A DNA stretch of 64,000 nucleotides from Chrysophaeum taylorii (lineage: Eukaryota > Sar > Pelagophyceae > Pelagomonadales > Pelagomonadaceae), in the NCBI GenBank assembly GCA_029834535.1, contig JAQMWT010000012.1, positions 1-64,000 of the forward strand. The letters are read 5' to 3'. This document shows, piece after piece, positions 1-41,121 of the stretch; position 1 is the stretch's first letter, and each line of letters begins with the position of its first letter. Position numbers and translations under genes: made by a program. The notes beneath the pieces are model-generated. The model saw nothing but the letters and a program-made list of their open reading frames with translations. It was not told the origin of the DNA and ran no database searches.

Positions 1-3000
1 AGAGTTTCCGAAGTGCAAGTAATGACGACGTCGTCTACTGAGAGCGTGCAAATTAGAAATGTAGCGTCAGCTTGGACTTTAGCGTAAATGCATGTGTCTG
101 TTCGAAATCGTGTGTAGCCTAATGAATCAAAGAAGCCGTTTATGGTTTGATTCCAAAGGCAGGGCTCTGACGTAATCCATAGAGAGATTTAAGTAGCTTT
201 GGGAGACGGTGGCCTTGGTATTTAGTATCTTCGGGATCGAGAAGGTAAATGCCTTGTGGCAGTTTGACATAGACATGAGAATCGATGGGAGCTTGAACAA
301 AAGCGTTAGGACGTCGACATGGTAGACGGAAGTCGCAGATGAGCTGCTAGCGCCAGAACACAACGGATGCCAGTAAGCTGTGCCATAGGGCTGAATGTGT
401 TGAAAAATCGGTGCCCAGAGAGGCTAAGAATCCTCGTAGGACCAGGCGTGCTTTATGTTTAATGTACTGACCAGCAGCGTTGGTTTTTATACGTAGGACG
501 AGGCGGGTGTCAATAGGCTTTGAGTTGACCATTGGCAGCGCTAGTTTAAAGCAGCCAAACTTAACAATATCAAAATTCTCCTTGGATATGGCNGCAACAT
601 TTTGCGATCAGCGTCTGAGAGACCTTTGAGGCAGTTCAACTCATATTCATCAATTTTGATATCTTTGGCTTGAATCTTGTATTCGTCCGAACCAACCGTG
701 CTGGGGTCATGAGTCGTCGTCAGATGAGTAATTGCGTAAGAAGCGACATTATCGTGCAGATGAGCGTGATCGGGATCTTCGACGAGTTGAACTAGTAGAG
801 GAGCATCACCAAGGTGGGCCTCAATGTAATGCGATTGCACGGTGATATAGTCTTCGATGGCGGAGATGAGGCTCGGAGGCACCATAAGAAGCGTCATTAT
901 GATCCAAAATGGAGTGGGGCGTGAACAAAGCATAAACATATTGAGCGGGAGGAACTTGAAAGGCGTGAGCATGTTCAGAAATTAAATGAACGAGAGCTTG
1001 AGGAGATCGCTTGGTGCACATGGTGATGAAGGGATGGTGTAAATTCCCCTCTGGAGGTATAGCCGTCCAGTGGATGCCATGAGCAAGATGAAGGGAGTGG
1101 AGGGTGGGGTCGCAGAAAGTTATGTACTGCTTGGAGAGGTCATACTTGAAGTCGGCAAGCGTACCACCGGCGTGTTTATAAGCGGCAACAGTAGGCGAGG
1201 CAATACGAGTAAGAACATCCTTGAGATTGGTTTTGCGACGAGGCTGAGGGTGATGAGGACCACGGGTGAGACGTAGGACATCCTGGGAATAGAGAGACCG
1301 ATAAGATGGTAAAAGTGGCAAAGTGTTGGAAGACACGTCAGATGTAGGTGTGGTGGCGGAAGTGGCGGGTGCAGAAGCAGCTGGAGCACATGCGGGAGCG
1401 GGAGAGGGAGCATGGAAATGAGAAGAAGAAGTCCCCCTCTCATGGTCAGTGTCGGTAGGCATAGCATTCCCCCTCTGCGCCGCATCATTGGGGGTGCTGT
1501 GAACAGAGAAGGGAATGTCGGGTGAAGGTGCGGGAGGTGGATGCTGTTCATAATCGGGAGGAGATTTAGAAATAAGATGAGGAAAGTCAGTTTAGAGGAA
1601 CACGGACTTGACCATTTTCAGGATTAAGGACAACATCGGCTAAATGATTAACATGGGGTGTTATTAAAGGGTTTATAACGTTAGCACCACATAAGTAGAT
1701 GTAGGGACGACATCGGGGTTCATATTTATGAAATTCGTTAGGTTCCAAATGCAGATAACAAACAGAACCAAAAGGTTTGAGGTAGTCCTGTTGGGGAACA
1801 TTACATTGGTCTAACAAAACTTGTTGGGGGCTTAGGACTTTATTATAAATACGTTCGAGGGAAACGTTAGGGAGGAGATTATACGATTGGATGGCATGTA
1901 TAACAGCCCACGGGTAGTGTGGTGCCGGATCTGTTAGGGGGTGACCTTTATAGGATACATTAAGCATATGCCGGAGTCGTGTAGACGCGGCAGTGGCTAT
2001 GTGACCAACAGCGGCTTCTACTTCATGATTAAAGACATGTAAGTAAGGGGGGAACGCGGACATGTTAATACCATGTTCCACACGAAAGGGGTTGTAACAT
2101 GCTGAGATAAATAGGGTTTAAAGGAATCACAATAGATTTGTTTGAGTTGTACATGAACATAAGTAGAGCAAAAATTGCGGACAAACTCAAGGGCGTTACA
2201 AAATTCGCTGGAGTTAGTGCTACGACAAAAGTACACTAACAGAAATTTAGAAATGAGACACTTGAAAACAATGATATGTCGAAAGGATCCCCATTCCGAG
2301 AGCACAGATACGTAACCACCGTCACATGCCCAGGCTTCACCAGGTTGAAAAATTTTTTCGAATGATGGTTGCTTGGTAAGGTGATGTGGATGAGGAAAGC
2401 GTTTTTTATGAATCGTACAATCCACACAGAACTTACGGTAGGGTACGTCAGATGGGTGGTGTCCAGGACTGGCAATAACCTGAACAGCTTTTATAGCTTG
2501 GGAATCACTAGAATGGTGGATGTTGTGAAAATTGGTGGCTCGTTGTTGCCCATCTCGAAATGCGAGGGTGCCTCTGGCATAAACTTTCTTATCGAAGGGC
2601 GCATGCTTCTCATGGAGCTGTCTTGGCGTTATAAGAGGAATGTGTTTTTCTTTAGTAGGAGATGATGTATCTGCGGATGAGGTGTTAGAGAGGAAGACAT
2701 GAGCTACTGAATCGAGATGAAAAGATGGAAGTTCGTGGTTAGAGGCAGGATTATCACAACACGCAAGTTTTTTATTGGAGATGTAGAACATTGTAATGGA
2801 ACTCTGGTGTAATAATAATGATGTATCTGTTGGGTATATATTTGTGAAGAAGGTTGACCTATAGTTTTTGACTAGAGAGGCATGATCAGGGTCAAACGAT
2901 GGTGATAGCGTTAATTTACGCAGGTCATAGACAAGCTGACCTAAATGTTTATAAATTATATGATATGTTCCAGCTGGAAGAGCATTCGCGATGATATCAC

Positions 3001-3630
3001 AGCATAGGCCCGGGGACAAAGACAGAAGAAAATTGATTTGGTACGCTGTGAAGTTATTGGCGCGTGCCAACTCGCGAGTTGGGTAGTGTCGGATGCGATC
3101 GAGTCGTGGATCGTACACGAGCATACTAGCAAATCCACGAATGGTAGGAGTAGGAGTGTATATGGAATGAACTTTGGCACCCATCTTCCTATCGCTTGAT
3201 GTAATAAAGCCCAGATGTCTGCTTTGGGACAGATGCATGTCACTTAAAGCAAACATTTTATCGATAAATTCGAGACGATTTTCCTGAGGGTAGAAGACAA
3301 AAGAATCGTGAAGTACAGGAGAAGTATAGGTGACCAGTACTTGTACTAAACGACGCGTGTCTTGATTTTCATTATTATTATGGTATGCTTGGCAAAGCCA
3401 AAGAAAACCAGTAACAGGTTCGAGAGAAGCAGTCTTATCGATTCCGGCATTATGTGTTAGGAAGGTATAGGTTTCGCCAAAAGCATTTATATGTGCCTGG
3501 TATTTAGAAGAGGAGTTAGAAATGTTATGTCTCCGCCTGTATGTCTTCCACCGGTGATGTAAATGATGGAGGAAGTAGAGGATTTATTTAAAAATAACCT
3601 ATGAGGTGGTTGGTTAGATTCGATAGTTGT

Positions 3631-3880: not shown

Positions 3881-4909
3881 TAGTTGTAATACGAAAGGAC
3901 ACAGGTAATGTGATGGATTTAGGGAATAAGCGTCCCATAATATTATAGAGGAGCACGAAAGCTTTGAGTTCAATAGGGGGTCTCATGCAAGCAAGTGGTT
4001 TTCTTGAATTAGTCAAGAATCCCAGGCGAAAGTTAGAAATGCCCTCCATTTCATCTTGACTGGGATGTTCGACTGTTTTATTAGAGTGCAGACGAAGGAA
4101 CAGCATACTTAAGGTTTCAAGCTCAGTCACAGTTAAGCGCACGGATCCTGTACGACTGAAAATATTGTAGGTTTTAGGTGTGGACACGAATGGTATGTCA
4201 GGAAAGACCTGCGTCCATTTTCGTCGACTATTAATTTGCGACTGATAGAATTAGCGTGGTCTGCAATGTCCAGAAAGGAAGTGACTCGTTTATTAGGCCA
4301 TGAAAGCAGATCAAGAGGGCCGGTGTTATATTTACGTGCAACGAGGATCCATCTTTCTCTGGCTTGATAATCTCCACATAGATAGCATGGAAATCGGTCA
4401 CATATATCCACCGTATAGTGCATCGTTGAGAAGATGAGATTAGCAACTCGTATATGATCTTCATACGATGCGGAGTGTGGTGGTGTCATTTCCATGAAAA
4501 GAACGAGCGGCTTTAAAAGCTCAAGTACACTTAGAGCACTTGGAAACAAGGAATCGTCCATATCACGCTCGAAGGTGGAAATGGATCTCCCATTGATTAT
4601 GTTGCGATTTGTGCATGGTGATGTCAATTCCACGATATCGGTGTAATATCGTGCACGTTCAACGTCCGATGCTCGATGGAGGTAAGTCAGAAACTTAGGT
4701 AGGGATGGGAAAACTTCGATGGAATTACCAAAACGTCTTCGTAGCATGTGCGTGATATTGTCATCGCTCTCAACAAGAACTTTAACGTTGATGTTGATTT
4801 GCAAGTCATTAGAAGCGCAAGCCAAGAATGCAGGAGTGGACATCCCAGAGCAAAGGAGAGTTACAGTAGGTGTTCGTGGGCTAGGAGACGAAGTTACTGT
4901 GTGAAGCAA
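3876..4909 (-). mobile_element. Cytosine-methyltransferase-like domain of Copia element 1
   Basis: Part of element 1 between the protease and integrase regions. The frame shows the ordered landmarks of C5-cytosine DNA methyltransferases: a motif I-like LLCSGMSTPAFLA, an acidic cofactor-site stretch VLVESDDN, motif IV TSPCTNRN with the Pro-Cys pair, motif VI-like LFMEMTPP and motif VIII YQARERW, which fits QxRxR. A later RLTVTELETL fits the motif IX position. The same domain, in the same place, is seen in elements 2 and 3. Family membership is inferred from motif order and spacing. Whether it ever methylated DNA cannot be told from sequence. It belongs to a fossil element. Confidence 0.78.
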
Positions 4910-6906
4910 TCGTGTGGTAACCTTGCGTCATACGGGAGGTGAGAAATGCTTGCGTATGTAAGGCAGCTGCGAATGCATTGACTCCAAGATGGTTTTAAGC
5001 CATGGGACGTAAATTACCCGTTCCATGAGGGTGGAATATAGTTTAAGCATGTCGCGTTGTTCATTAAAAGCACATAGTCTGAAGTGTAGTGAGCGAAGTT
5101 CCATTTTACGCGCTTTTGCTTGTTGTAGCGAATAAATTGGTAGAGTTGGCAACAGGTTACTGAGTCTAAACAAAGTAATTTTGACATTATCATCAATTTT
5201 ACTCTGGATAGATGATTGTCCTTTAAATTCAACTCCATAGAGATGTATACCAAGTTTATCTTCTCCCCATTGAGTCATACTGATGATGTGCAGATCGGGA
5301 TCGTTATGGTCGTTTTGCTTGGGTAGAAAAAGCGCAACGTCTAGCTTTACACCTTATAATCATGGCATGTGTGATTCTCTGCGTATCCGTAGCAGTCTGG
5401 ATAGCAGGCGATAAGGACTCGGGTAGCTTTACAATGTGGATAGGATAAGCATAACGTTTAAAGTTGATTACATGTTGAGAAGCACATGTGTCAGCATATC
5501 CTGGCGTAGTCATTAGCGGCAAATTGTACTCGTTGTACAGTTTAAGCATTGTTGCATAACAGGCAAGTGTTGAGCTTTGACCAGACACGTACTGTGTCAT
5601 GAAACTTTGCGTTTGTTCGGAAGGCACAACGACGAGTGTAAAACCAGTGTTTAATTTTGGTAGCAACACAGGGGGATCTGTATCATCTTCACTATCTTCA
5701 TTGGGTAGATTATTGGGGAGCTCAGAGTGTGAGGAAGTTTCCCGAGCTTGACGACGAACGATAGCATTCTGAGCTTTAGCATTTATGTGCTGCAATAGCG
5801 GCTGAGGGATGTTATCGATTTCATCATCTTTAATGGACAGAAAAGTGTGGAACATTTTCTCTGTATCAGCAGTCCCCCTCTGCTCCGCATCACTGGGGGA
5901 CGCTTCAGGAGCAGATGTTTCATTTTGATACTTTTCTTCTGAAACATGAGATTCCTTATCGGCTTCTAAGAGGTTCACAATAGTATTATTGGACATAGTA
6001 TCAACTCGAGATAAGTAGAGATGAACTTGGGTGGCTTCGTCAGGATCTAAGGACTGTGTCGAAGCTTGAGCAGCGGCTGTCCAGAGGGTACTCAGTAAGC
6101 TTTTCATTTCCTCCTGTACCATTTTAGAGTCGGTAGTGGGGTTGGGATTCGCTTCCTGTAATTTGCCAAACAGGTGGCGAGGACGATCATCTTGATGAGT
6201 AGCCCGGTCCATAAGAGACATATTAGAGCGTGCATTACGGTTAGAGGAGGGTGAGTAGACAGGACGGTCGAAGCTGGTACCTTTGACGTTATAATTTGAA
6301 GGTGGACGATAGTACGACGTGTCACGAGGTGAATTTGTCGATGCTCTATCTTTTGCATTACGAAGCTTACGAGCGTTGAAGCCAGACTGTCCAACAACAG
6401 TAGCTAACAACGAGTAAGCGTTGTTTAAAGAGTCGTGGGATTGATGAATAGTATCCATCAATAATACTTTAGGTGGCTTGGTAGCGGTAGTACCAGGGAT
6501 GTAAGGGATCCAGGAAGCGGCTTTATCCAAGCGTCGGTTAGAGAAAACCTTTTTTTCATTGTATACCTTTAACAAGAATTCCAATAACGGACGAACGTCG
6601 TTAGGATCAACTAGCTTTAACAATTCAGGATCGTGAATCGAGTTGTTCCCAGAGCGTGTCTCGTAGAGTTTACACCATTCCAATAAAGATTGAGAATAGC
6701 GCTCGTGATCCGAGGGATTAGCGTATAGACGGTGGATCTCCGCGCGAGTTTTAAGAGTAATTATGGAGTTATTAAATTGGATTGATACTTCATCATTATT
6801 TAATTGCTTTGCCTGAGATTGGAAAGCAAGAAGTTGTTCGACGAACACATGGGCATACCAATTAACATTTAACGACATTCAAATAAACTGAGATTTAAGC
6901 TCAGTA

Positions 6907-8476: not shown

Positions 8477-9270
8477 TGGAGAGATTTGACCCTCTCCGGG
8501 TACATGGTAGAGACTGCGTGTAGTCTTAGGCGTGTACAGACCATTCCGCTTGTCACAATGTCACATGCGACTACACAAGGTAGGGATTTAAGCCCTAACT
8601 CCTTAAGGACATTAGGTCCCATAGAAGCGTTTACACTGACAACGAGGAACGAAGCCTCTGTTAATTAAACAGAACACTCCGTACCTGACGGTGCGCACCT
8701 GGAGGCCTACTCCATGTTGGAAAAGAGCTTCAGACTGGGTTCTTTATAGTCGTGAAAATATATAATTGCGGAAGGGTAAGGGATGACAGAAGGAACGAGG
8801 GAAAGCCGCATTACGGAGAGAAAACGCGCGTGTGGAGATAGGTGTGAAATGTTCCAGCGTTCCAATCCCTTACCCTGATAGCCGACTGTGGTTACGATGG
8901 AGGACGGTGCCTCATGAATCCTGAGCCTTGCGAGGGCATCCGCCCTCCCGGCGTAGGTTGGCACCTATTCGCCTCCCGGGCGGGCCGGTTGGCAGCCGGA
9001 ACGTTCGCAGTGGGACGGGGTATGGCCGGGGGGCGCAGACGGAAGGTTATCGACGAGTTGATTGTCAGTCACATCGCGGTCTCCTCGTCGCATGGCGACT
9101 AGCTTGATGGTCACTCTCCGCCGACAGACCTTTCGGCGCTCCTCGTCTACAGGCCCGTGATTCCGTACTGGCTCCTGTCGGTCCGGCCTTGCTCCCATGC
9201 TCGGGAGAGGTCTGAAGTTAGTTAGTTAGTTAGTTCCAGTGTCGCACACATAATAGTGTAGCTCTCTGGA
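8477..9270 (-). repeat. 5-prime LTR of Copia element 1 (with nested retroposon)
   Basis: On the minus strand this runs from TCCAGAGAGC (outer edge 9270) to AAATCTCTCCA (inner edge 8477). Without copy C it is about 420 bases. It matches the LTR-like units at 40200-40601 and 40709-41121 over its whole length. Just inside it is GGTTATGA, which resembles the Copia primer site that pairs with the anticodon arm of initiator tRNA-Met. The outer end begins TCC rather than the usual TG. Confidence 0.75.
8858..9232 (+). mobile_element. SINE-like retroposon, copy C (inside the LTR of element 1)
   Basis: A full-size copy inserted in the 5-prime LTR of element 1. The LTR sequence of element 3 reads straight through the equivalent point. 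The body and TTAG tail are nearly identical to copy B. The likely target duplication is GTTCCAG (8851-8857 and 9233-9239); about 15 bases at the 5-prime end are not shared with copy B, so the exact left edge is uncertain. Confidence 0.82.
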
Positions 9271-21800: not shown

Positions 21801-24800
21801 CTCCCCCTTCATTTCCAATTTCTTTATCTGGATAGCTGTGCCTCCATCTCGTTGATGACCACGTTTGATAAGGCTTTACCGAACCTCATCGTCCCTATTG
21901 ATCCAAAATGTGCCCCCGTTGTACAAACTGCCACAGGACAACAACAAGTCTCGCACATCATGCTAACGAAAAACATCGTGTCTCCACCACCGAATCACCC
22001 TGGTATCGGCTACGTGAAGCTTTAATGCGCTTTGTTTCTCAAGCCAGTGCAAGGTCGTCACTTTATTTTTACTCGGCGCACCTGAATGGAACAAGGCTCA
22101 GTTGACCCGTCACCCTTAACGACAACAGCGAACAACCAAGTATGTCCCACTTAACTAGTCTGATTGACAAAGACGTGAACATGCCTATTCACTTCGCTGA
22201 TCACGACCTACCAGCGCTACCGTGTCTACTTTATGCCCTGGCACGTGATAGGAACCTCGAATTGCGCTTGCTAGCATTCCCGCTTAAGAGGTACAACGAA
22301 AATCGCGATTTACTCAACTATTACAATTATTTGGTTACGAAGCTCTCCGCCCGCCCTTGGCTCCGTACCCTACTTCTCAATCTTTGGAAACAAAACGAGT
22401 ACGTTAAGAAAAATACCTCGCCTCTCGCTTGACTGCGAACCCGGCCAGCATTCCTATCAACCACAAATAACGGTTCTTGCAAACCAACGGTCATGCTATT
22501 GTGTTCTGGGTTGTCCACTCCTGCGTTTCTGTCTCAAGCAACAAATGACTTGGTCCTGAACATCGACGTCAAGGTCGTTGTTGAGTCCGATGAAACCCTT
22601 GTGCGCATGCAACGCAAACAAGTCCCGAATGTTACTACCTTCGAATCTCTTCCTTCTTTCCTTAACCATCTCCACGCTGTATCGGAAGAAGAAAGACAAC
22701 ATTTATATTGCGGCGTGATAGAAATCACCCCTCCATGTACCAATCGCAATCTGCTCAAGAGCACCAAAACATCCGACTTGGTTAGTTTGCTCGACGACTC
22801 TCTATTTGGCAGTATGCTCTCTGTCATCAAATTACAGGAACCCCTGGTTCTGCTTGCGGAGATGACGCCTCCACATAAGTTGGTCCACAGGGATCACATC
22901 TCAGTGGCTAATCTCATCCACGCTGCACTGGACTATACCGTCGATGTAGTCGGCGGCTTCCCTACTTTCCTTTGCGGCGATTACCAAGCTCGGGAACGAT
23001 GGATCTGCATTGCTCGCAGATACAATACTGGACCCATTGATATGCTTTTCTGGCCTAACCAACACCCTAAGCGTTTTCTGGACATAGCAGATGACGTCCA
23101 CTCTGTAGCTAAAACGCTTAGGCTGTCTAAGACCTTAGCTCAAGGTTGGATTCGCACTTATTCCGATCAACCAATCGTTCAGTCACCAAATACGTTTCCG
23201 TTATACTCTCGTACCGGTCCCGTTCGGCTTAACTTTTGTGAGCTTGAGACTTTAAGTATGCTTATTCTCAGGCTTCATTCACAGCAAGCTCTCGAGCAAA
23301 ATACTCACAAATCGCATCCTGAATGCACACATCACTACCTTGGTTTTAAAAGATCTTCTAACCAACCACTACCTGGATCTTCTAAACCCATTCGCCTCAA
23401 GGTTTCGCCGAACACCCCCACACCTGTGTCCTATTATGTTACGATTTTCCAAACTAACCAACCCGCACCTAGGTTATTTCTTACAAACTCCTCAATTACC
23501 TTCAACATGCACATTCTTGCTGGTGGACACCATTCCGAAGGTAACCTACTAGCTGAAAACAAGGCCAGCAAATATCAAGCTTCCATTGACGCATTTGGAT
23601 CCACCGACACCCTGTGACAAATACGCGTGTAGAGGGTATGGTAAGTGCCAGCAGGCAAGGCATTGCTGAGAAGATCACAGCACAGGTCTTTCTTCAGTGA
23701 GAGTAAGAAGGTTGCTTGAGGGCGAGTGTGGTTGTTACCTCTGATAAGCTCAGAACGAGTCGGGTAACGAAGTTTGCCATTGCGAGGATCCAGCAGGATC
23801 ATATTGGCATATCCACGTATCGTGGGCAGTGATGCAAGCATTGAATGTATTTTGGATCCAAGCTTGCGGTCGCTGCCGCGTACGTAGCCAATGTACCTGC
23901 AGTGGGAGAGGTGATGATCTTCCAAGGCGAAGTATTTATCCTTAAAAGAGAGTCGGTCGCAAGATTGATCGTACGCAACACAGTTGGGAATGATAAGGGC
24001 ACACTGTTGTAGCAGATTGCGGATGGCAGGGAAGGTGCCGTGAGCTGTGTCAACAGGGAGATAAGCTAGCACGAGCCAAAGATAGCCTTGGAACGAATCA
24101 AGATGAAGTGTCTTGTCAGCGGGACTATCGCAGGCAGTCCTATGTGTCTGCCTTCTTCACGCGTGAACTTTCACTCTCCAGTCACAGCTCAGACTCCATC
24201 TCTCAGGCTGGTGCATTCATGAGTTACATCTCCAACCGAAGCTGGACTGAAAAGTCGTCAAACTACCGCTCTTCAGGAACTACACCGGAAGGAGCACTCT
24301 CTACAACCACAACTACTGCTGATGGTGACTCCAACGACGACACTGACGCTCCCTCCTTAGATGCATCCACGGAGCTCAAATTCAACGTTCGCAGAACGCG
24401 ACATATCCCTGTCAAGGCTATTCACCGTAAGTCGCTCGCTCATGGCACAGTAGAGTATAAAATGCCAAGGAAAGAGCCAACCGATTCCACAAAGTACACC
24501 ACTGTCCTGACAACGTTGCCGCAAAACCCCTGACGTCATTGCTCGCCCTGGCTTCTCAGCAGCGGACATCCCCGAAAGAGATCTCTGCCTCGACTGTATT
24601 TGCCACATCAAGCGTCTTACTCACGATCACGAGAATCAAACTATGCCCTTTTTGAACAGACTCGCCGGCCAGGTGAAGTCTGGGCATTGCCTTTTGTAAG
24701 ACACAACTGAACGTCCATTTGCGCACGGTATACTCCGTCCGACGCGTTCCGGCCGTACTTCAGCCAATATAACTACCCCCTACTGGGTAGATAAAGGCAT

Positions 24801-27800: not shown

Positions 27801-28150
27801 CCCGACATTCTACATGAATACGCAAGCTGACCCTCCGCCCGATTTTGATGCAGACAACAATCCCATTGCCGAGGAGATGCGCTTCATCAGAAGCCTATCC
27901 CTCTTGTCTGACAACGCGGCTGCCGTGCACACTTCCAATAATCCTGACGGCTCTTCTGGCTGCAAAGCCCTTTCTACACGATGGTTCTAAATTCGAGAGT
28001 ATGTCGCATTACAGAAGATTCGCGTCCATCATGTCCCTGGCAAGTTAAATGTAGCTGATGGCTTTACAAAGCCTCTTGCAGCCGACTTTGCTGCTCTTCG
28101 CTCTCTTCTAGGTATGCATCACACTACTGATTCAGACCAAGTTGAGACCT
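18850..28150 (+). mobile_element. Copia-type LTR retrotransposon, element 2 (diverged subfamily, fossil)
   Basis: A plus-strand Copia element clearly diverged from elements 1 and 3. Parts: probable 5-prime LTR ending CA at 19112; primer site GGTTATGGGCCCAGCG at 19113-19128, the Copia type that pairs with the anticodon arm of initiator tRNA-Met; gag from 19628; protease with D-S-C-A-S near 21830; methyltransferase-like domain 22493 to about 23300; pre-integrase and integrase about 23600-25300; a proline-rich linker; RT about 26280-27250 with YHADVPNAF and KLLKSLYGL; RNase H about 27530-28140 with RKSTTGF. It is broken, with about ten interruptions, and internally rearranged. The left edge is uncertain and no 3-prime LTR was recognised. 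The interruptions and the missing end suggest considerable age. Confidence 0.9.
22493..23617 (+). mobile_element. Cytosine-methyltransferase-like domain of Copia element 2
   Basis: The longest open stretch in the front half of element 2. It carries the same ordered motifs as in the other two elements, with many substitutions between them: LLCSGLSTPAFLS (motif I position), VVVESDE (cofactor acid), ITPPCTNRN (motif IV), LLAEMTPPH (motif VI), YQARERWICIARR (motif VIII, QxRxR) and VRLNFCELETL (motif IX position). Retention of exactly these blocks while the surrounding sequence has diverged is what one expects of a functional domain in the ancestor. It is part of a fossil element. Confidence 0.78.
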
Positions 28151-28515: not shown

Positions 28516-31500
28516 GGCCTGGCGAAGCTTTCCAAGGGGAGTCACGCCCGCTCGTCGCGAACTGCCTCGCACCCTTGCTCCTGCAGAGTCCTCTGCCAAC
28601 ACTCCCCCGAGCCGCAGGAAGCTGACTCGCGATGACATTACCCGTCTCCTCTCTACTTAGTTGGTTTGTGACCGAGTTGGGTCGGCCACTGGTCATGTGC
28701 ACTCGCATAACGAATAAAATTAAATTTTCCCCTACACAAGCCGCGGAAACTTGTACGGGTTTTTCCTTCCATTCCCCAACAAAAGACTGACTGCTCGAGA
28801 ATTAATCCATTATTCAGTCTCAAATCATCATGTTTAAATGGCATGTTGATTTGTTTGGTCTTGTAAATAAGCCCACGCTTAAAATAGCGAACTGCACATA
28901 CGCATCCGCATGTTAGAAACCCTTCATTCGAACATGTTAATCTGTTTATCACTCCTTTAACCTACTCTGAGCAGATCATAACAATGTCAAAACCCAAACC
29001 AATATCCACTGCGGACATCTATAAGCAGGAACAAATTCTCGTTGATAAGCTCAACGAGGGTTTACGTTTCCAAAACAATTCAACTAAGGTCAGTTTGCAA
29101 CTCGAAATGCTTCGTAGGCACATGACAAGCCCATACGCGGACGCATTGTTTGCGTTCGATTCGTATGACGCCTATACGCGGAATGCCTCGGAGTACAACC
29201 AACTTCTCGAACACGAAGTTGATATCATTTTCTCCCGATGGAAATCCGGGAAAATTAATGAATTACACCTGCCTAATGAAGATGCCCTGCCCGAACATTT
29301 AAAGACGTGGCACGTAAACCATGCGCACCAACTATCAGTCGATGCGCGTAATGATCTCGAACGACTTTTCTTTCAAGAGTCACTTAATCTTGTTCGCCCC
29401 GAATTAAACGAGGATGTTAAACTTGTCCTTACCCATTTAAACACCCAATTCCCTAAATCAATTGTGTATGATTCGTCATTAACCAATATATCCTTCTCAG
29501 GTCTTTCTAATGCCGACTGGATTAAACACTGCGAAACCTACGCGGGGTTCTTGTACACGTTTTTCAATTTGGAATCTCAAGATCGCCCTGCCCTCGCCAT
29601 GTGGACACAATTGAAGAAAATTTATTCGTTAACGGCGCATCCTAATAAAGCACGCGCTATTATGTTGTTATCCTATCACTATTACGAAACTGCATCCTGT
29701 ACGGATGTCACTGAACTTTAATCTCAATTTAATCGAATGTCCCTAAATGTTAATTGGTATGCTCACGTATTTGTCGAAAAACTTCTTGCTTTTCAAACTC
29801 AGGCAAATCAATTGAATCATGACGAAGCATCAATTCAATTTAATGATTCCATAATCGCACTTAAAGCTCACGAGGAGATTTATCGTTCTTATGCTAATCC
29901 CTCTGACCACGAGCGCTACTCGCAATCATTATTAGAATGGTGCAAACTTCATGAAACACGCTCGGGGAACAACTTGACTCGCGATCTTGAATTTTCAATG
30001 CTAGTGGATCCCAGTGATGTTCGCCCGTTATTGACTTCTTGTTAAAGATATACAACGAGACGAAATTCTCATCTAACCGACGCTTGGATAAACCCGCATC
30101 GTGCATTCCGTATATCCCTGGTACTACCGCTACCAAGCCACATAAAGTATTATTGGTGGACACCATTCATCAGTCCCACGACTCGCTAAACAATGCCTAC
30201 TCATTGTTAGCTACTGTCGCTGGACAGTCTGGTGTTAACGCTCGAAAACTTCGTAACGCTAAAGACAAAGCATCTGCCATTTCACCTCGAGACACATCTT
30301 ACTATCGCAACCTTCAAATTGTAATGTTAAAGGTACCAGTTTCGACCGTCCTGTCTATTCACAATCCACTAATCGTAACTCACGCTCCAATATGTCATTA
30401 ATGGATCGGGCTACTTATCAAGTTGACCGTCTTCGCCATCTGTTTAGTAAATTACAGGAAGCGAATCCCAATCCTTCTACCGACTCTAAAATAGTACAAG
30501 AAGAAATGAAGAGCTTACTAAGTACCCTCTGGACCACTGCTTCTCAAGCTTCTACACAGACTCTCGATCCTGAAGAAGCCACCCAAGTTCACCTATATCT
30601 ATCTCGTGTTGATATAATGTCCAACACCATCTCGAATCTTCTAGAGACAGATAAAGAGTCTCACATCGTAGAAGAAAAGGATCAAGTTGAAACTTCTGCT
30701 CCTGCAGCGTCCCCCAGTGATGCGGAGCAGAGGGGAGCTGCTGAAACGGAAAAGATGTTTCACACTTTTCTTTCTATCAAAGATGATGAAATCGATAATA
30801 TTCCTCAACCGTTACTGCAGCACATAAATGCTAAAGCACAGAATGCTATCGTTCGTCGTCAAGCACGGGAAACTTCTCTTCATTCTGAGCTTCCCAATAA
30901 TCAACATGACGGAGAAAACGAGGATGGTACAGACCCCCCAGTGTTGCTTCCGAAATTAAACAATGGCTTTACACTTGTCGTTGTACCTTCCGAACAAACG
31001 CAAAGTTTCATGACTCAGTATGTATTTGGTCAAAGTTCTACACATGCGTGTTATGCAACAATGCTTAAACTGTATAATGAATACAACTTACCATTAATGA
31101 CTACACCTGGGTATGCAGACACGTGTGCTTCTCAACACGTGGTTAACTTTAAACGTTATGCCGACCCACTACATATCGTTAAACTGCCCGAATCCTCGTC
31201 TTTAAATGTCGACTGCTAAGAGGGGGAATCCTTGTCACCCGCCGTCCAGACTGCTACAGACACTCAAAGTATCACCCATGCAATGATAATAAGAACAGTC
31301 ATTCCTGCTCTCCCAAAGCATCCGAACGTTGGATACGTCAAGCTGGATGTTGCTCTTTTGCTACCTAAACAAAATCAACATAACGATCCTGATTTGCGCA
31401 TCATCAGCATGGCTCAATGGGGAGAAGATAAACTTGTATACATCTCTATGGGGTTGAGTTTAAAGGACAATCATCTATCCAGAGCAAGATTGACGACAAC

Positions 31501-31554
31501 GTCAAGATTACTTTGTTTAGGTTAAACAATTTATTACCTACTCTCCCAGTCTAT

Positions 31555-31895
31555 CGTCGACGATGGAGGACGGTGCCTCATGAATCCAGAGCCTTGCGAG
31601 GGCATCCGCCCTCCCGGCGTAGGTTGGCACCTATTCGCCTCCCGGGCGGGCCGGTTGGCAACCGGAACTTTCGCAGTGGGGCGGGGTATGGCCGGGGGGC
31701 GCAGACGGAAGGTTATCGACGAGTTGGTTGTCAGTCACATCGCGGTCTCCTCGTCGCATGGCGACATGCTTGATGATCACTCTCCGCCGACCCACCTTTC
31801 GGCGCCTCTCGTCTACATGCCCGTGATTCCGGACTGGCTCCTGTCGGTCCGGCCTGGCTCCGATGCTCGGGAGAGGTCTGAAGTTAGTTAGTTAG
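31555..31895 (+). mobile_element. SINE-like retroposon, copy D (inside element 3)
   Basis: A 341-base insertion with a perfect 13-base target duplication TCTCCCAGTCTAT (31542-31554 and 31896-31908). The same position in element 1 is uninterrupted. It begins near CGATGGAGGACGG, slightly shorter at the 5-prime end than copies B and C, and has the same body and TTAG tail. Confidence 0.88.
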
Positions 31896-32130
31896 TCTCC
31901 CAGTCTATTCGCTACAGCAAGCTAAAGCTCGAAAAATGGAACTACGCTCTTTACAGTTCAGATTGAGTGCTTTCAACGAACAACGTGAGATGCTTAAACT
32001 ATACTCCAAGCTTCTCGAACGTGTAATACACGTCCCTTGGCTTAAAACCATTTTGGAGTCCATGCACTCACAGTTGCCTTATGTTCGCACGCATTTCTCA
32101 CCTCTTGTATGACGCAAGTTTAATCCACGC

Positions 32131-33546
32131 ATGCTTCATACTGTAACGACCACTTATAGTTCAAGAGTACCTACGGTAACTCTACTTTGCTCCGGGATGT
32201 CCACTCCTGCATTCTTGGCTTGTGCTTCCAATGACTTGCGAATCAACATTGACGTTAAAGTTCTCGTTGAAGGCGATGAAAATCTTACGCATATGCTTCG
32301 AAGACGGTTTGGCAATTCCATTGAAGTGTTTCCGTCCCTACCAAAGTTCCTCACCTATCTGCATCGAGCATCGGACGCTGAACGTGCAAGATACTACTCT
32401 GACATTGTGGAATTGACTTCCCCATGTACCAATCGTAACATAATTAATGGGAGATCTATTTCAACTTTCGAGCGAGATATGGACGACTCTTTATTCCCAA
32501 GTGCTATAAGTGTACTTGAGCTTTTAAAGCCCCTTGTTCTTTTCATGGAGATGACACCACCACACTCTGCATCCTATGAAGATCATATACGAGTTGCTAA
32601 CCTGATCTTCTCCACAATGCATTACACGGTGGATATATGCGATCGCTTTCCCTGTTACTTGTGTGGAGACTATCAAGCAAGAGAAAGATGGATCCTCGTC
32701 GCTCGCAAATATAACACCGGCCCACTAGATTTGCTTTCTTGGCCCAATAAGCGAGTTACTTCCTTCCTGGACATTGCGGATCACGTTAACTCCATAAGTC
32801 GCAAGTTAATTGTCGACGAACCCTGGACCCAGGTCTTCTCAGATGTACCATTCGTTTCCATGCCCAAAACTTACAGCAGCTTCAGTCGCACAGGATCCGT
32901 TCGCCTAACGGTTACCGAGCTAGAGACACTAACCATGCTGATCCTCCGTTTGCATTCATATAAAACAATCGAACACCCAAGTCAAGACGAAATGGAGGGC
33001 ATTTCTAACTTTCGCCTAGGATTCTTAACGAATTCAAGAAAGCCCCTCACGTGTATGACTTCACCTATTGAACTTAAGGCCTTTGTTGTCCTCTATAACA
33101 TTATGGGACGCTTGTTCCCAAATTCTACTATATTACCTGTGTCTTTTCGTATGACAACTATCGAATCTAACCAACCATCTCACAGGTTATTTTTAAATAA
33201 ATCCTCTACTTCCTCCATTATTTACATCACTGGTAGAAGACACACAGGTGGAGACATCACAGTTTCCAACTCCTCTTCTAAATACCAGGCACACATAAAT
33301 GCATTTGGGGGAACCTACAACTTGCAAACACACGAAACAGGAATTGATAAGGCCGCTTATCTCGATCCTGTGACCGGCTTTCTTTGGTTGTGCCAAGCTT
33401 ACCACCATCATAATGAAACCCAAGACACCCGTCGTCTCGTGCAAACACTCGTCTCCTACACTTCACTTCACCTGTGCTTCACGATTCTTTCATTTTCCGT
33501 CCCAAGACCAATCATCTTGAATTTATCGATAGAATCTTTGCTTTAA
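32131..33546 (+). mobile_element. Cytosine-methyltransferase-like domain of Copia element 3
   Basis: A single open stretch of 471 codons between protease and integrase. Ordered motifs of the C5-cytosine methyltransferase family: LLCSGMSTPAFLA (I), VLVEGDEN (cofactor acid), DIVELTSPCTNRN (IV, with Pro-Cys), PLVLFMEMTPPHS (VI; the usual ENV is EMT here), LCGDYQARERWILVARK (VIII, QxRxR) and SVRLTVTELETL (IX position). Spacing between motifs is similar to bacterial enzymes of this family. The second part of the frame continues towards the pre-integrase region. In the life of the element the domain would have been released from, or carried within, the polyprotein. Alternatives such as another Rossmann-like methyltransferase fit less well because of PC followed by QxRxR. 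Confidence 0.8.
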
Positions 33547-36500
33547 GTGACATGCATCTGTCTCAAAGCAGGTATCTTGGCTTCATCACATCTAGTGATA
33601 GAAAGATGGGCGCCAAAGTTCATTCTATTCACACACCAACTCCAACTATTCGTGGATTTGCGAACATGATCCTTTACGATCCACGACTTGATCGCATTCG
33701 ACACTACTCAGCTCGTGAACTGGCACGCGCCAATAACTTCACAGCGCACCATATTAATTTTCTGCTGTCTTTGTCCCCGGACCTTTGCTGTGACATAATT
33801 GCTAATGCTAGTCCGGCTGGAACCTATCATGTAATTTATACACATTTGTGTCAGCTTTGTCCATGATTTACGTAAATTAACGTTATCACCATCTTTCGAC
33901 CCTGATCATGCTTCTCTAACCAAAAACTATAGGTCAACCTTTTTCACTAACATATTTCAAACTGACACATCCTTAATACTAAACCAGAGTTCTATCACAA
34001 TGTTATATATTTCTAATGAAGTATTCCAATGTTATGACATTCTCCCCTTTAACCAAGAACTTTCTTCGTTCCATGTCGATTCAGTAGCCCATGTATTCAT
34101 GTCTATCATCTCATCCTTAGATGAACCATCTACCTCCCAAACAAAAATAAAACACTTTCCTCTCATAACTCCAAGACAGTTACACGAGAAACATGCTTCT
34201 TTCGACAGAAAAGTACACGCCAGAGGCACTCTAGCTTTTCGAGATGCCCAAAGACGTGCCACAAATTTTCACAACATTCACCATTCTAGTGACTCTCAGG
34301 CTATAAAAGCCGTTCAGGTCATTGCCAGCCCGGGACATCACCCTTCAGATGTGCCCTACCGTAAGTTTTGTGTGGATTGTACCTTACATAAAAAAACGCT
34401 TTCCTCATCCACATCATCTTACCAAGCAACCTTCATTTGAAAAAATCTTTCAACCTGGTGAAGCCTGGGCATGCGGTGGTTACGTATCTGTCCTATCCGA
34501 ATGGGGCTCTTTTCGACACATTTTAGTTTTCAAATGTCTCATCTCTAAATTTTTGTTGGTGTACTTTTGTCGTACTACTAATGCTAGCGAATTTTGTAAT
34601 GCCCTCGAGTTTGTTCGCAATTTCTGCTCCACCTATGTTCATGTACAATTAAAGCAAATTTATTGTGACTCTTTTAAACCCTCTTTATCTCAACACATTA
34701 CCACTCCCTTCCGCGTTGAACATGGCATTAATATGTCTGCTTTCCCTCCCTACTTGCAAGTGTTTAATCACGAAGTAGAAGCCGCTGTCGGTAATATTGC
34801 AACTGCTGCGTCTACACGACTCCGGCATATGCTTAATGTATCCTATAAAGGTCATCCCCTAACAGATCCGGCCCCACACTACCCGTGGACTGTTATCCAT
34901 GCCATTCAATCGTACAATCTCCTCCCTAATGTCTCTCTCGAACGCATTTATAATAAAGTCCTAAGTCCCCAACAAGTTTTGTTGGACCAATGTAATGTTC
35001 CCCAACAAGACTACCTCAAACCTTTTGGTTCTGTTTGTTATTTGCATCTGGAATCTAATGAATTTCACAAATATGAACGTCGATGTCGTCCCTACATGTA
35101 CTCATGTGGCGCTAATGTTATTAACCCTCTAGTTACACCCCATGTTAACCACTTAGCTGATGTTGTCCTCAATCCTGAGAACGGCCAAGTCCGTGTCTCT
35201 TCTAAACTTACCTTTCCTCATCTAACTTCTAATTCTCCTCCCGATTACGAACAACAACCCCCACCTGCACCTTCACCTGAAATACCCTTTTCTGTTCAAA
35301 GCACCCCCAGTGATGCGGAGCAGAGGGGGAATGCTATGTCCAAAGACATTGAACACGAGAGGGGGAATACTTCACCCCTCGCACACGCTCCAACTCCAGT
35401 TCCAGCATGTGCTCCCCTTGCTTCTGCACCCGCTGCGTCTGTCGCCACACCTCCGGCATCTGAAGTGTCATCCGCAACTTTACCCATTTTACAATCCTAT
35501 CGGTCCTTATACTCCCAGGACGTCCTTCGTCTCACCCGCGGTCCTAATCACCCTCAGCCTCGTCGCAAGACTAATCTCAAGGCTGTCCTCACTCGTATTG
35601 CTTCGCCAACCGTTGCCGCTTATAAACAAGCTGGTGGTACGCTTGCTGACTTCAAGTATGACCTCTCCAAGGAGTATATTACTTTCTGCGACCCCACCCT
35701 CCACTCCCTTCATATTGCTCACGGCATCCACTGGATGGCTATGCCACCAGAGGGGAATTTACACAAACTCTTCATCATCATGTTCACCGAGCGCTATTCC
35801 AGTCTTCTTCTGGTACGTGTCATAGTAGCCTTAGCCATCCGTCGACGGATGCCACTCTTGTTCATCTCCTCGACGACTTCAGCTTCTCGGACCTTCACCT
35901 TCCTCGCGCTCTTGTTCATCTAATTTCTGAAGACGATCAAGCTTTTCGAGTTCCTCCCGCTCAATATGCTTATGCTTTGCTAACGCCCCATTCTATTTTG
36001 GATCATAACGATGATTCTTATGGTGCCTCCGAACCTCACCTCTCCGCCATTGAAGACTACATCACTGTGCAGTCTCATTACATTGATGCACACCTTAGAG
36101 GTGACCCTTTACTAGTTATTCAACTGGTCGAAGCTCCCGATCCCGATCATACTAACGCTATTATTGATTCTTACACGACCATCCACCTTACTCATGCTCA
36201 AGATCCCAGCACTGTTGGTCCGGACGAATATAAAATTCAAGCCAGGGATATCAAGATTGATAAATATGAGTTGAACTGCCTCAAAGGTTTTTCTGATGCT
36301 GATCGCAAGGCGTATATCTCCGCAATTTCCAAGGATATTTTTGATATTGTCAAATTTGGCTGTTTTAAACTATCGTTGCCTATGGTCAATTCCAAGCCTA
36401 TTGATACCCGGCTGGTATTACGTATAAAGACCAACGCTGCCGGCGAATACATCAAACATAAAGCGAGACTGGTCCTACGGGGATTCTTAGCTTCCCTGGG

Positions 36501-38149
36501 CACCGACTTTTTTTTAACACATTTAGTCCAATGGCGCAGCTCACTGGTATCCGTTGTGTTCTGGCGCTCGCAGCCCACCTCCGACTTCCCGTCTACAACA
36601 TAGATATACCTAATGCGTTTGTTCAAGCCCCTATAGATTCTCATGTCTACGTTAAATTGCTACAAGGTATTCACCTACGGGACCCTGAAGATGCAAAATG
36701 CCAAGGACGACGTCTCCCAAAACTACTCAAATCTCTTTATTGATTACGACAGAGTCCTGCACTTTGGAACCAAACCATAACTGGTTTCTTCGGCACGCTA
36801 AGCTAAGCTATCAACGCTTTCGAACAGATACCTGAATCTATGCCAAAGTCCAATCCGACGCTACGTTTTTATTTCGTACTTTATAAGTGGATGATGTTGT
36901 TATTATCTGTACATCGGAAAGTCTACGTCGTGAATTCCAACAAGCTATGAAGAAGGAATATTCTGTTGAAAACTTTGAAGAAGTTCATACTCTCCTAGGT
37001 ATGCGAATAACTCGCACTACCGATGGCTCCATCTCACTTGATTGCAAAGCTAAGATTGATGCATTGTTTGAAGAGTATCCCATCTTAACGCCTTTACGTC
37101 CCACATCAACTCCTATGTCCCCTTCAACTATATATAAAACTGGAGAGCCATCTTCTGATATGGACAAGTTCATCCAACACACCTTCTCCACCTTACTCGG
37201 CAAGCTCACTTTTGTACAGTTGGCCTCTCGCCCTGATTTATCACAAAGCCTCAGTCGCTGTTCCCGAGGAATGCATAATCCAACATATCTGCACGTCCAA
37301 GTATTAACAGGAACTCTTCGCTATTTCCGCAAACCTGAAAATCGCAATCTTCGACTATGATACTACTCTGGTTCTTCCGCTCTAATGGACCATCTTAGAT
37401 TTCTCATCGGCAATCGTACCGATATGGCAACCATGTTGGACTACACTAAAGAACAAGTGGATTCAGGTAATTTTGATCCACTGGTCGCGTTCGTCGACGC
37501 TGATAATGCACCATCTTATGAACAAGATCGCAAATCTACACCTGGTTATGCTATCTTTTTATTTGGTTCCCTCATCACTCGGAAGTCCAAACTACAGCCT
37601 ATCACAGCTACTTCCACGCATGAGAGTGAACTTATTGCCCTTAATATGTGTGCTGATGATGTGGTCTGGTTACGTAAACTGTAAACGGAAATGGCTTTTG
37701 CTATAAACCCGCAATACTATCTTCGCCAACCTCCAGGTAAAGATTTGTTATTAGATTACGATGCTCATGACAACCCTCTCCCATCAGACATGTCGTTTAT
37801 GCGCAACAGTCCTATACTTGGAGACTCTGCTTCTGCCATCCACCTGTCGAATAATCCTGATAGTGCAACCAATGCCAAAGCCATTAGCACACGCTGGTTT
37901 CGTATTCGTGACCTTGTTCACCTAGGACGCATTCGCTTGCACCATGATTCTGGCACCAAAAATATCGCTGATGGATTCACTAAGCCCTTTGGTGCTCCTC
38001 TCTTCACTAGATTTCGTACGTTACTCGGCCTACAACAAAACATAGCCCAGCAAGATACTTAATCATTACCCTTTACTATGTCCGCAATGACATTAAACTA
38101 GCCCTCACAGAAAACGGCAATTGCGGCTCGCTGAAAACATAAAATGTGA

Positions 38150-40064
38150 TCTCCATAAATGAATCCAACCAAGACCAAGGACGCCGCGAGCCGACGACAC
38201 TCAGTATTGAATCGTGGACGTGGTGGAATATCTACACTGCCCTCACCCTTTAATGCTCTGAATCCGGGGCTTGCTCCTACTGGCTCTCCCAATAACCGTA
38301 AACAACCGTCGTATCTCTCTGTTGCTCAAGGAAATAAAACACCGTACTGATACCTATGTTAAAAGCACAGAGTACTATTTGTTGAAACATTGAAAATTCG
38401 ACGTTATGGCGATGATGTCTGGGAACGTTCTTTCGCTTGGTACTCAACCACCAAATTTCCTTTTACCGTCACCTAAGGATCCTCAATGTTGGTCTCAGCC
38501 CATCCAACAGCTGCTCACTGACGCACAACAGAACAATAACGTTGATAATCTTCATTTCTTGAGTTCCCTCCTGTGTTTAAAGACCAAACGTGTGCGCAAT
38601 GCACCTAATGTACCGGCAAATGAGGGCATTCGGTTGCATCGATACCCACCAATTAAAGGAGCTGTCAAAGTACATGTGCTATGCACCAAATGCTTCAATA
38701 AAACCGACGCGCCGGGTACGCGACGAAATTACTAAAATCATTGAAGAGCACTTGTCATCAGAACAACATGCCTCGCACTGCTTCGATGTGCCCCGTCCAA
38801 TTTTCCTTTTGATCTGCGTTATGTGTAATCTGTCGCAACACGGGACTGCATTAACTAGGAATCGTCTTCATTCGTTTCATCTTTCACGTCACAATGACCC
38901 AGCTGCCCACATGCGAGAGCCATCATCCTGCGCTTGGGAAAGTCTATTCCAATAAATAAGATACTCAAAGATGCGCTCATTTAATGCATGGCTACTCACA
39001 ATCTTAACGTCTCTAACATAATAGTAAACCCAGATGACCACACACCCCTTTTGCTACATCTACCTCATATTTCTACCGTTAATATCGAAATCCTTGTAAC
39101 GGCATGGTCATTACTACAGTCCGTCGAAGATAAAGTCTGCATTGTTACAAACCCGGATGAGTTGCTTGCTGTTCTCGTTGAAGGTTTCGTTAATGATGTT
39201 TCACACCAGCTTAATGATACTTTTCACGAGATGTTACCGCCAATGTTGGACTACTTCCTTAAGTTAGCCCCAGAGCATCACACTGCTTTCAAAAATGTAC
39301 TTATCCAAGTTGGTTATCCCTCTGCCATAATAGACGCTTTTTCGGACACTAAATCGTCTGAAGTCAAACCAGCACAAGTTGGACCTACTACAGATGCACC
39401 TCCTGACAACGTACATGAAACTTTGCGACTTTTAAGAGAAGAAATACAATCACTGTCCTTGCACATCGCCAAGAGTGATAAGCAATCTGTAGAGCGAGAT
39501 CAACGACTTTCCGATGCTTTGGAAACCATCACTCAACTCAAAAATGCTAACGATGCTCTTAACGCGCAAGTGACCGAGAACATTAAACACGTGTCACTCT
39601 TAGACAATCTGCTTTCCAGCTACCAGATGCACCAGGATACTACATTGTCTACCCTTGCTGTCTTAGCTCATGTGATTTCTAAATCCTTAATCAGTTTTGT
39701 TGAACAGTATCCTCCAAATACTTTTGAGGAGGCACAGCAAAACATAGTCGAAGATACAGCTGCTGGCTTACATACTGCTATGTCTGCTGCACAGGATCAT
39801 GTTATTCCTGCAACAGATTTGCACACTCCAACACCTGCTGCGGCTATGCCCTATTTGTCTTCTGTCATGTCGCCACTTGTTGATCTCAGCGATGCGACAA
39901 CTATAAATAACACCACATCTAATGACCAGTTCGAAGACCATGACACTTCCTCTCCAGAATTAAAGAAACTTGAAGACAATAGTGATGATGAGTTGGACCA
40001 CACATCTGATGCTGTGGATGCTGTTTCACTACGTAATGTAACAACACGTCCAACTTCCTCCTAA
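38150..40064 (+). mobile_element. Extra ORF region between RNase H and 3-prime LTR of element 3
   Basis: After the RNase H region a further 1.9 kb is coding-like. The clearest part is an open frame of 358 codons at 38988-40064 with a long heptad-type coiled coil around residues 145-205 and an acidic, Ser/Thr-rich tail. No hydrophobic segment is present, so it is not envelope-like. No known domain was recognised. Ordinary Copia elements end soon after RNase H, so this is an added module. It is part of a fossil element. Confidence 0.7.
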
Positions 40065-40199
40065 TGTTAATTGTTATGTTACCTTATCATTTATGTTGTT
40101 GTTTTATGTTTAAGTTATTCGCTGTTCTCATGTATCGTACACAAGCTTCACACTCAAGACCGTCTGGAAAACACAAAGCCTTTCCACACGTTGAGGGGG

Positions 40200-40601
40200 T
40201 CCGGAGCGCTACACTATAATGTGTACGACACTGGAATTCCTTACTCCTTTCACACCTTTTCTACTTGAGGGTTTTCTCTCCGTAATACGGCTTTCCCTCT
40301 CTCCTTCCTTACCCTTCCGCAATTATTATTTTTCATGACTATGAAGCACTAGTCTGAAGCTTTTTCCAACGTGGAGTAGGCCTCCAGGTGCGTACCGTCA
40401 GGTACGGGGTTTTCTGTTTAATTAACAGAGGCTTCGTTCCTCGTTGTCAGTGTAAACGCTTCTATGGGACTTAATGTCCTTAAGGAGTTAGGGCCTAAAT
40501 CCCTACCTTGTGTAGTAGCATGTGACAAGCGGAATGGTCTGTACACGCCAAAGACTGCACGCAGTCTCTACCATGTACCCGGAGAGGGTCAAATCTCTCC
40601 A
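40200..40601 (+). repeat. 3-prime LTR of Copia element 3
   Basis: A 402-base unit from TCCGGAGCGC to AAATCTCTCCA, preceded by the polypurine tract TTCCACACGTTGAGGGGG. It matches the LTR of element 1 along its full length, including the palindromic GTTTAATTAACAG segment and the CGGAGAGGGTC motif near the end. Confidence 0.8.
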
Positions 40602-40708
40602 GTTTGTTTTGTTTTGTCTAATTGCTCGACGTTACACGTCTGTTGTACACTATGCGCACTCTCTCGAACGTCTGGGATGCATAAAGCATCTTCCACACGT
40701 TGAGGGGG

Positions 40709-41121
40709 TCCAGAGAGTTGACTCATAACATGTACGACGCTCTGGAGCTCTTCGCACCTTTTCTAATACTCCATCTTTCATGAGGGTTTTCTCTCCGAAT
40801 TAATACGGCTTTCTCTCATCCTTGCTCTTCTTCCCTTCCGATTTCAAGTCTAGCTGGATATGAGATATCATCTAGAGTTTTCTTCCTATCAGGAGAAATC
40901 CACCATTTGCGTGCCGTAAGGTCCAGCGTCTTTTTGCTTAATTAGCAGGAGCTCTGTCCCTCGTTGTCAGTGTGAAAGCTTCTACGGGACTTAATGTCCC
41001 TGGGGAAGTTAGGAGCTAACTCCTGCCTTGTGTAGTAACACGTGACATGCGGAATTGTCTAGTCACGCCTAAGACCGCATGCGGTCTCTACCATATACCC
41101 GGAGAGGGGCAAATCTCTCCA
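40709..41121 (+). repeat. Second, diverged LTR-like unit behind element 3
   Basis: A 413-base unit from TCCAGAGAGT to AAATCTCTCCA, again directly preceded by CCACACGTTGAGGGGG. It resembles 40200-40601 throughout, but with many differences. The two units lie in tandem 107 bases apart. It may be the remnant end of an older related element, or a tandem duplication at the 3-prime end. Confidence 0.75.

Follow-up and report, generated by a model that had tools for sequence, protein, structure and literature searches.

A predicted C5-cytosine methyltransferase domain at the head of the Pol frame, behind a conserved TGA codon, in a Copia retrotransposon family of Chrysophaeum taylorii

The stretch of Chrysophaeum taylorii DNA analyzed in this work (contig JAQMWT010000012.1, positions 1 to 64,000; this whole 64,000-nucleotide (nt) stretch is further called the window) contains a Copia retrotransposon, element 3, whose coding region carries a predicted C5-cytosine methyltransferase (MTase) domain. 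The element is composed, in order, of gag, a protease (PR)-like motif, a TGA codon, the MTase, integrase (IN), reverse transcriptase (RT), RNase H (RH), a third open reading frame (ORF) and a long terminal repeat (LTR). The MTase motifs I, IV, VI and VIII follow each other within a single open frame of 477 aa (Table 1), in the order which a preliminary description of this DNA had stated. The limits given there for the domain (32131..33050) enclose the core motifs, but they are too narrow, since the complete domain comprises about 560 residues, includes motifs IX and X, and extends to approximately position 33850. In the element 3 copy the frame is broken near position 33460 and motifs IX and X are found in another frame, while position 32131 is an ATG codon lying inside the open frame.

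The undivided plan of the enzyme is visible in L031, one of the loci cut out of the searched genome (70.8 Mb, 697 contigs) and denoted here by L-numbers. A single 1464-aa frame of this locus runs from the MTase through the integrase into the RT, and its motif IX (PTPTIRGF...YSTRELARANNF) and motif X (IANAIPAGTYH) come after a central region. It matches P0006, one of the related ORFs from MMETSP and environmental data (P0001–P0009), both in motifs I–VIII (E 1e-22) and in motifs IX–X (E 4e-14). The ordered set of motifs I, IV (PC), VI (E), VIII (QxRxR), IX and X is present in L031 and in most of the 30 loci that were compared. Motifs IV, VI and VIII were aligned to residues of HhaI, and the two last motifs are presumed to be IX and X on the basis of P0006 and of the usual motif patterns.

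The identity of the domain was approached by profile searches and by modelling of its structure. The Pfam search proposed in the preliminary description gave a sub-threshold match to PF00145 when the window frame was used alone (12.2 bits, E 0.12, cut-off 22 bits), i.e., the single-sequence test failed, and PF00145 was not matched in Pfam scans of the MTase frame of element 2 (a further Copia element of the window) or of L004. Phmmer searches of PDB with the window frame and with P0002 returned nothing relevant (for the former, mostly p53 noise). A profile built from the window family alone found no MTase in PDB, and the link with MTases therefore rests on intermediate relatives. Such relatives came from a collection of 5.8 billion proteins, in which 3963 candidates were scored and two matches were obtained at E ≤ 1, both of them MMETSP transcript ORFs: P0001 (41% identity to the window MTase, E 1e-76) and P0002 (E 1e-14). 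Their PF00145 scores were 20.2 bits, which is under the cut-off, and 41.8 bits, respectively. EMTPP and GDYQ.RERW are common to all three proteins; at motif IV the window frame has SPCTN, P0001 has PPCLG and P0002 has the canonical APCQG. With a profile built from five relatives, eight proteins were detected at E ≤ 0.01, including P0002, and PF00145 was recognized in six of the eight; among P0002–P0009, EMTPP was found in seven of eight (EITPP in P0003) and the canonical PCQ likewise in seven (PCP in P0009). When the relatives were included in the profile, a search of PDB led to 8yf3 (E 6e-6) and M.HhaI (E 8.5e-6), and the PC, Glu and QxRxR residues coincided in the alignments. Full-length polyprotein relatives of L031 were not found at E 1 or better, and 15 pattern matches in viral contigs included no relative.

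The structure prediction, also suggested earlier, gave a positive answer. As the first AF2 model (5 sequences) had a mean pLDDT of 40.1, a second model, restricted to the core and based on 12 sequences, was used instead. It shows the MTase strand order, i.e., a class I MTase fold, and its best Foldseek matches are C5-MTases, with DNMT2 among them and HhaI, DNMT1 and DIM2 equally good. Taken together, the relatives, the profiles, the modelled fold and the conservation described below confirm, at the level of sequence and model, the proposal that a C5-cytosine MTase domain lies between PR and IN of a Copia element, and the order of motifs in the other loci agrees with this placement.

The presence of the domain is not limited to element 3, to which it had been assigned at first. 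All three Copia elements seen in the window carry the MTase: element 1 (minus strand, 1 to ~8850), whose MTase is 84% identical to that of element 3, and the more distant element 2 (plus strand, ~19600–28000; 49–50% identity). Moreover, at least 91 matches to the MTase of this family (family A) were found in the genome, a few of which are two pieces of one copy, and the domain is thus a standing part of the family. In the 30 loci cut out of these 91 matches, motif IV with its Cys is retained in all (L036 reads SRCTN in place of SPCTN, with the Cys kept), motif VI Glu in 29 and GDYQARERW in 29, while LLCSGMSTPAF was found in 27 and FMEMTPP in 28. TPTPTIRGF and IANAIPAGTYH were counted in 22 and 21 loci, respectively; in six and seven loci the motif is missing from the open frame, mostly because the frame ends early. 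In 11 of 12 long loci, all of them chosen by their MTase, the integrase motifs come after those of the MTase.

The comparison of coding sequences points in the same direction. Across 253 pairs of 23 copies (those of the 30 loci with a frame comparable through motif X, a sample biased to good matches and open frames), the median dN/dS was 0.080 and no pair reached 1. The medians for separate parts were 0.052 for motifs I–VIII, 0.092 for the region after motif VIII and 0.067 for motifs IX–X, and the median dS between copies was 0.45. These values show that the domain has been kept by purifying selection; a MTase lying in the coding region, in many copies and under such selection, is what is seen in retrotransposons described as DNMT-bearing. 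The copy in the window is itself a dead member of a living-looking family.

A second conserved feature of the family is the stop codon preceding the MTase. The junction GTATGAC(G/A)CAAG was found in all 30 loci, and in 29 of them its TGA shares the frame of motif IV (L010 is the exception); L003 has an additional in-frame TGA ahead of motif I. Within the window the junction is exact in elements 1 and 3, and TGA-C is also retained in element 2 and in L042, both of which are more distant. Upstream of the TGA, the frame is open for 571, 769 and 525 codons in L035, L037 and L038, respectively, and includes the PR motif, while eight other loci that were examined have an open stretch without this motif. 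An in-frame ATG between the TGA and motif I is missing from 28 of the 29 in-frame loci and is present, at 32131, in the window copy. As judged from these sequences, PR closes the gag ORF and the MTase is the first domain of a Pol frame placed behind a conserved TGA. Conservation of TGA-C despite a median dS of 0.45 suggests that the stop is used, probably by readthrough, in which case the MTase would be made as part of Pol.

Table 1. Features of Copia element 3 and of the MTase regions of elements 1 and 2 (window coordinates).
Feature	Positions	Strand	Remark
Copia element 3	28661..40605	+	aligned by blastn with 12 related loci and with other window sequence
gag-PR region	28888..31219	+	several broken frames in the element 3 copy
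Short interspersed repeat, 342 nt, inserted in the gag-PR region	31555..31896	+	
TGA (then C) between the gag-PR frame and the MTase-IN-RT frame	32110..32112	+	
MTase motifs I–VIII in one open frame, with most of the VIII–IX region	32113..33543	+	
Motif I, LLCSGMSTPAF, SAM-binding loop	32185..32217	+	
Motif IV, SPCTN	32419..32433	+	predicted catalytic Cys at 32425–32427
Motif VI, EMTPP	32548..32562	+	Glu aligns with the ENV Glu of M.HhaI
Motif VIII, GDYQARERW (QxRxR)	32665..32691	+	
Motif IX (TPTPTIRGF...RELARANNF) and motif X (IANASPAGTYHVIY)	33633..33848	+	shifted frame of the element 3 copy
Integrase core, approximate limits	34400..34900	+	
Reverse transcriptase, broken frames	35662..37360	+	RVT_2 18.6 and 17.1 bits, cut-off 31.6
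RNase H region with ADGFTKP	37361..38062	+	
Third ORF, 359 aa, downstream of RNase H	38985..40061	+	
Presumed 3' LTR, ~405 nt	~40200–40605	+	
Element 1 MTase, N-terminal part	4136..4927	-	
Element 1 MTase, C-terminal part (motifs IX, X), joined to integrase	2021..3583	-	
Element 2 MTase frame, motifs I–VIII	22433..23614	+	TGA-C directly before
Element 2 inverted segment with motifs IX–X	23575..24156	-	local inversion

The remaining parts of element 3 follow the Ty1/Copia Pol order PR-IN-RT-RH with a RVT_2-type RT, in which PR and RNase H were recognized by motif. The DTCAS motif at 31118 is taken by us to be PR, and no Pfam match was found for this part of element 3; similarly, the region with ADGFTKP is presumably RNase H. 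The integrase of element 3 lacks the first catalytic Asp seen in L031, and rve was sub-threshold in L004 and in element 1. The RVT_2 score of element 2 was 137 bits. For the third ORF, 117 genome matches (self excluded) of 55–92% identity were recorded, many of them in open frames of 350–785 aa; the Pfam scan gave no family over its cut-off, and BLAST revealed no significant likeness to the gag of the element. A 5' LTR was not found in the element 3 copy (blastn, 12 loci and the window). The ~405-nt repeat taken to be the 3' LTR (40200–40605) is also present at the 5' terminus of six loci (L032, L035, L037, L039, L040, and L041), and a matching young pair at both ends was seen in no single copy. 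Directly after the 3' LTR region there is a LTR-like stretch (40657–41121) of 74% identity to it, which may be a solo LTR or belong to another element. The repeat of ~340 nt inserted in the gag-PR region occurs also at window positions 3631–3880, 6929–7264, 8894–9230, and 61636–61711, and at least 42 genome matches were recorded for it, nearly all of 96–98% identity. It resembles a young SINE or a similar non-autonomous element. Apart from this, an exact direct repeat of 87 nt with a start-to-start spacing of 109 was noted at 59938–60133.

The genome was also searched with PF00145, which gave 124 places at E ≤ 1 (123 of 474 candidates scored), with 101 rows over the cut-off, some of them only together with their neighbours; copies of family A were not seen among the matches listed. 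Two other LTR retrotransposon families with MTases were distinguished, and the numbers of matches quoted for them are lower bounds, although some rows stand for two fragments of a single copy. Family B (L045 and L046, on contigs C96 and C314; at least 86 matches) is a second Copia family. In L045 a PR-like motif, MTase, integrase and RT lie in one 1952-aa frame with no TGA stop, and its MTase, with the canonical motifs TLPCQ and ENVPP, scored 32.1 bits with PF00145, i.e., over the cut-off. Family C (L044 and L048, on contigs C235 and C5; at least 116 matches) belongs to Ty3/gypsy and carries a second type of MTase (PF00145: 24.4 bits in L044 and 18.4 bits, under the cut-off, in L048). In L048 it follows, within a single 3057-aa frame, a region which, by its motif, we take to be protease-like, and precedes RT, RNase H and integrase. 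In a tree with 18 rows, among which there were no DNMT3 references, family A joined P0001 (starred node) and family C stood apart (unstarred). The host gene L043 encodes a protein with MTase and SNF2 parts, which we presume to be DNMT5-like, and the protein of L049 is likewise assumed to be DNMT2-like; long branches leave the place of the host DNMT5 in the tree unsure. The rbcL gene of the genome, on contig C697, is of the red type, and its best PDB matches are diatom enzymes; this agrees with an ochrophyte or haptophyte host, and is compatible with the stramenopile suggested in the preliminary description, short of proof. The MTases may be a standing part of three LTR families, two Copia (PR-MTase-IN-RT) and one gypsy (PR-MTase-RT-RH-IN), derived perhaps from two or more captures, with that of the window family delivered as the first Pol domain by TGA readthrough. 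We put this broader view forward tentatively, at somewhat less than even odds.

As a rule, it is the host that uses cytosine methylation against retroelements. That the element family has kept a domain of this kind by natural selection suggests that the elements mark DNA themselves. A role in marking or protecting the DNA of the element was already envisaged in the preliminary description, and the reading we prefer, with a probability of about 55%, is that the C5-MTase is the first part of Pol (MTase-IN-RT-RH), made by TGA-C readthrough, packaged in the particle and directed to the element's own new cDNA. Occasional readthrough at the end of gag-PR would yield Pol, and in this way the MTase would enter the virus-like particle together with integrase and reverse transcriptase. 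It could methylate cytosines of the newly made cDNA, before or just after integration. The methylated copy would then bear host-like marks and evade being sensed or damaged as foreign, or it would land in tolerated chromatin. The related MTase ORFs among MMETSP transcripts, the single frame of family B and the published methylation by two SymbioDIRS DNMTs (see below) count in favour of this reading. The CpG observed/expected ratio was 0.92–0.98 in the elements of the window versus 1.37–1.41 in two flanks, but C-to-T changes at CG were not raised in the copies (0.034, versus 0.036 at CHG and 0.042 at CHH), so that lasting CG methylation of the copies is not supported by that test; we base no conclusion on this footprint. 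Several results weigh on the other side, namely the sub-threshold PF00145 score of the window frame, the failure of the family-only profile to find a MTase in PDB, and the absence of RNA structure near the stop (z -0.27).

The first two of these results could be taken to mean that the likeness to MTases is due to chance, which we consider practically negligible, as the PF00145 scores of the relatives, the profiles built on them, the homology with P0006 and the Foldseek matches agree on a MTase. A less drastic alternative is that the domain has the fold and not the activity, and serves as a conserved DNA-binding or scaffold part of Pol. The altered motifs I (SGxST), IV (PCT) and VI (EMT) would fit such a role, as would the low Pfam score; nevertheless, the near-invariance of the motif IV Cys, the motif VI Glu and GDYQARERW, the lowest dN/dS of the three parts in the core, and the occurrence of EMTPP in relatives of which nearly all have the canonical PCQ make it improbable. 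Expression could also differ from what we propose. It is conceivable that the TGA simply ends gag-PR, and that Pol is made by internal initiation or splicing, or not made at all, and the missing RNA structure, the second Copia family without a stop at that place, the ATG of the window copy between the TGA and motif I, and the L010 junction, in which the TGA is out of the MTase frame, are in line with this idea. We regard it as unlikely, though deserving some weight, because the TGA-C is universal among the 30 loci and nearly always in frame despite the divergence at silent sites, an in-frame ATG between it and motif I is wanting in all but one of the in-frame loci, and the ATG overlapping the TGA belongs to a different frame.

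For an active enzyme made as part of Pol, the substrate is to be considered. It might act on host DNA or chromatin, i.e., on regions of insertion or competing elements, or disturb host silencing. The host protein that we presume to be DNMT5-like, with its MTase and SNF2 parts, implies that 5-methylcytosine is probably used in the host, and a MTase adjoining integrase in Pol could be brought to insertion sites; however, expression at the level of Pol and the probable packaging favour cDNA, and the copies bear no CG deamination signature, and hence a host target seems rather improbable to us. Still less credence is given to methylation of RNA (the genomic RNA of the element or its tRNA primer) in a DNMT2-like manner. 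In the consulted parts of PMC5890265 its authors raise RNA methylation for LINE-borne DNMTs, and DNMT2 is among our fold matches, but those with HhaI, DNMT1 and DIM2 are equally good, and the tree places the family apart from the host DNMT2-like protein, though on long, unstarred branches. Methylation of the element's own cDNA thus remains our preferred reading.

According to the consulted parts of PMC5890265, DNMT-bearing LINE and DIRS elements occur in Symbiodinium and gypsy elements with DNMTs in Klebsormidium nitens, while abundant Copia elements of Symbiodinium are without any DNMT domain. The statement of the preliminary description that captured MTases are known from LTR elements of dinoflagellates and charophyte algae thus holds for the charophyte (gypsy), but not for the dinoflagellate, whose published cases are LINE and DIRS. 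In the same source, de novo CG methylation in yeast is reported for two SymbioDIRS DNMTs and self-methylation of cDNA is proposed, whereas the LINE and gypsy DNMTs gave no methylation, which its authors call inconclusive. The parts consulted of PMC12344493 place some DNMT3 members in LTR Copia and DIRS elements, citing PMC5890265, whose own term is gypsy. Excerpts of PMC9998398, a survey of microeukaryote DNMTs, report DNMT5 in pelagophytes, diatoms and haptophytes, those of PMC12477816 describe a Sola1 transposon with a N4C or N6A MTase in Ectocarpus, and the word copia is absent from those of PMC11244446. Within the literature covered, partly in excerpts and with most subscription papers and all preprints outside its scope, no Copia element with a C5-MTase between PR and IN was recognized. 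DNMT-bearing LINE, DIRS and gypsy elements are already known; what is new, as far as this literature goes, is a Copia element whose Pol frame begins with a MTase, behind a conserved TGA.

The family presented here shows that Copia, a superfamily for which a MTase was not clearly documented, can harbour a conserved one, with tens of copies (91 matches), and it extends a phenomenon known from two algal lineages to a third host type. Copia families A and B, together with gypsy family C, form a natural series for testing cDNA self-methylation, which, if the three-family view is right, would be common practice in this host rather than an exception. An active enzyme would also bear on the discrimination by the host of self versus incoming DNA.

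As regards the systems known so far, SymbioDIRS-Dnmt3 and SymbioLINE-Dnmt resemble the window family, as far as the consulted parts of PMC5890265 go, in that a retroelement present in many copies has a C5-MTase within its coding region and is subject to purifying selection; they differ in being DIRS (with tyrosine recombinase) and LINE elements, not Copia. KnitGypsy-Dnmt3, from the same excerpts, likewise has its MTase inside the Pol of a LTR element, with Ka/Ks < 0.2, but it is a Ty3/gypsy element with a Dnmt3-type enzyme, whereas the enzyme described here lies in Copia, before the integrase and behind a conserved TGA. Family C is closer in plan to KnitGypsy-Dnmt3 than the window family is. 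With bacterial C5-MTases of the M.HhaI type (PF00145), the window family has the core fold and the catalytic residues in common; it is set apart from them by a core identity of ~16–19%, by PCT in motif IV and EMT in motif VI, by being part of a retroelement polyprotein, and, as seen in L031, by ~320 residues separating motifs VIII and IX. Finally, P0001–P0009 belong to the same MTase lineage, and P0006 has motifs I–X in the same plan, although all of them are free-standing or fragmentary ORFs.
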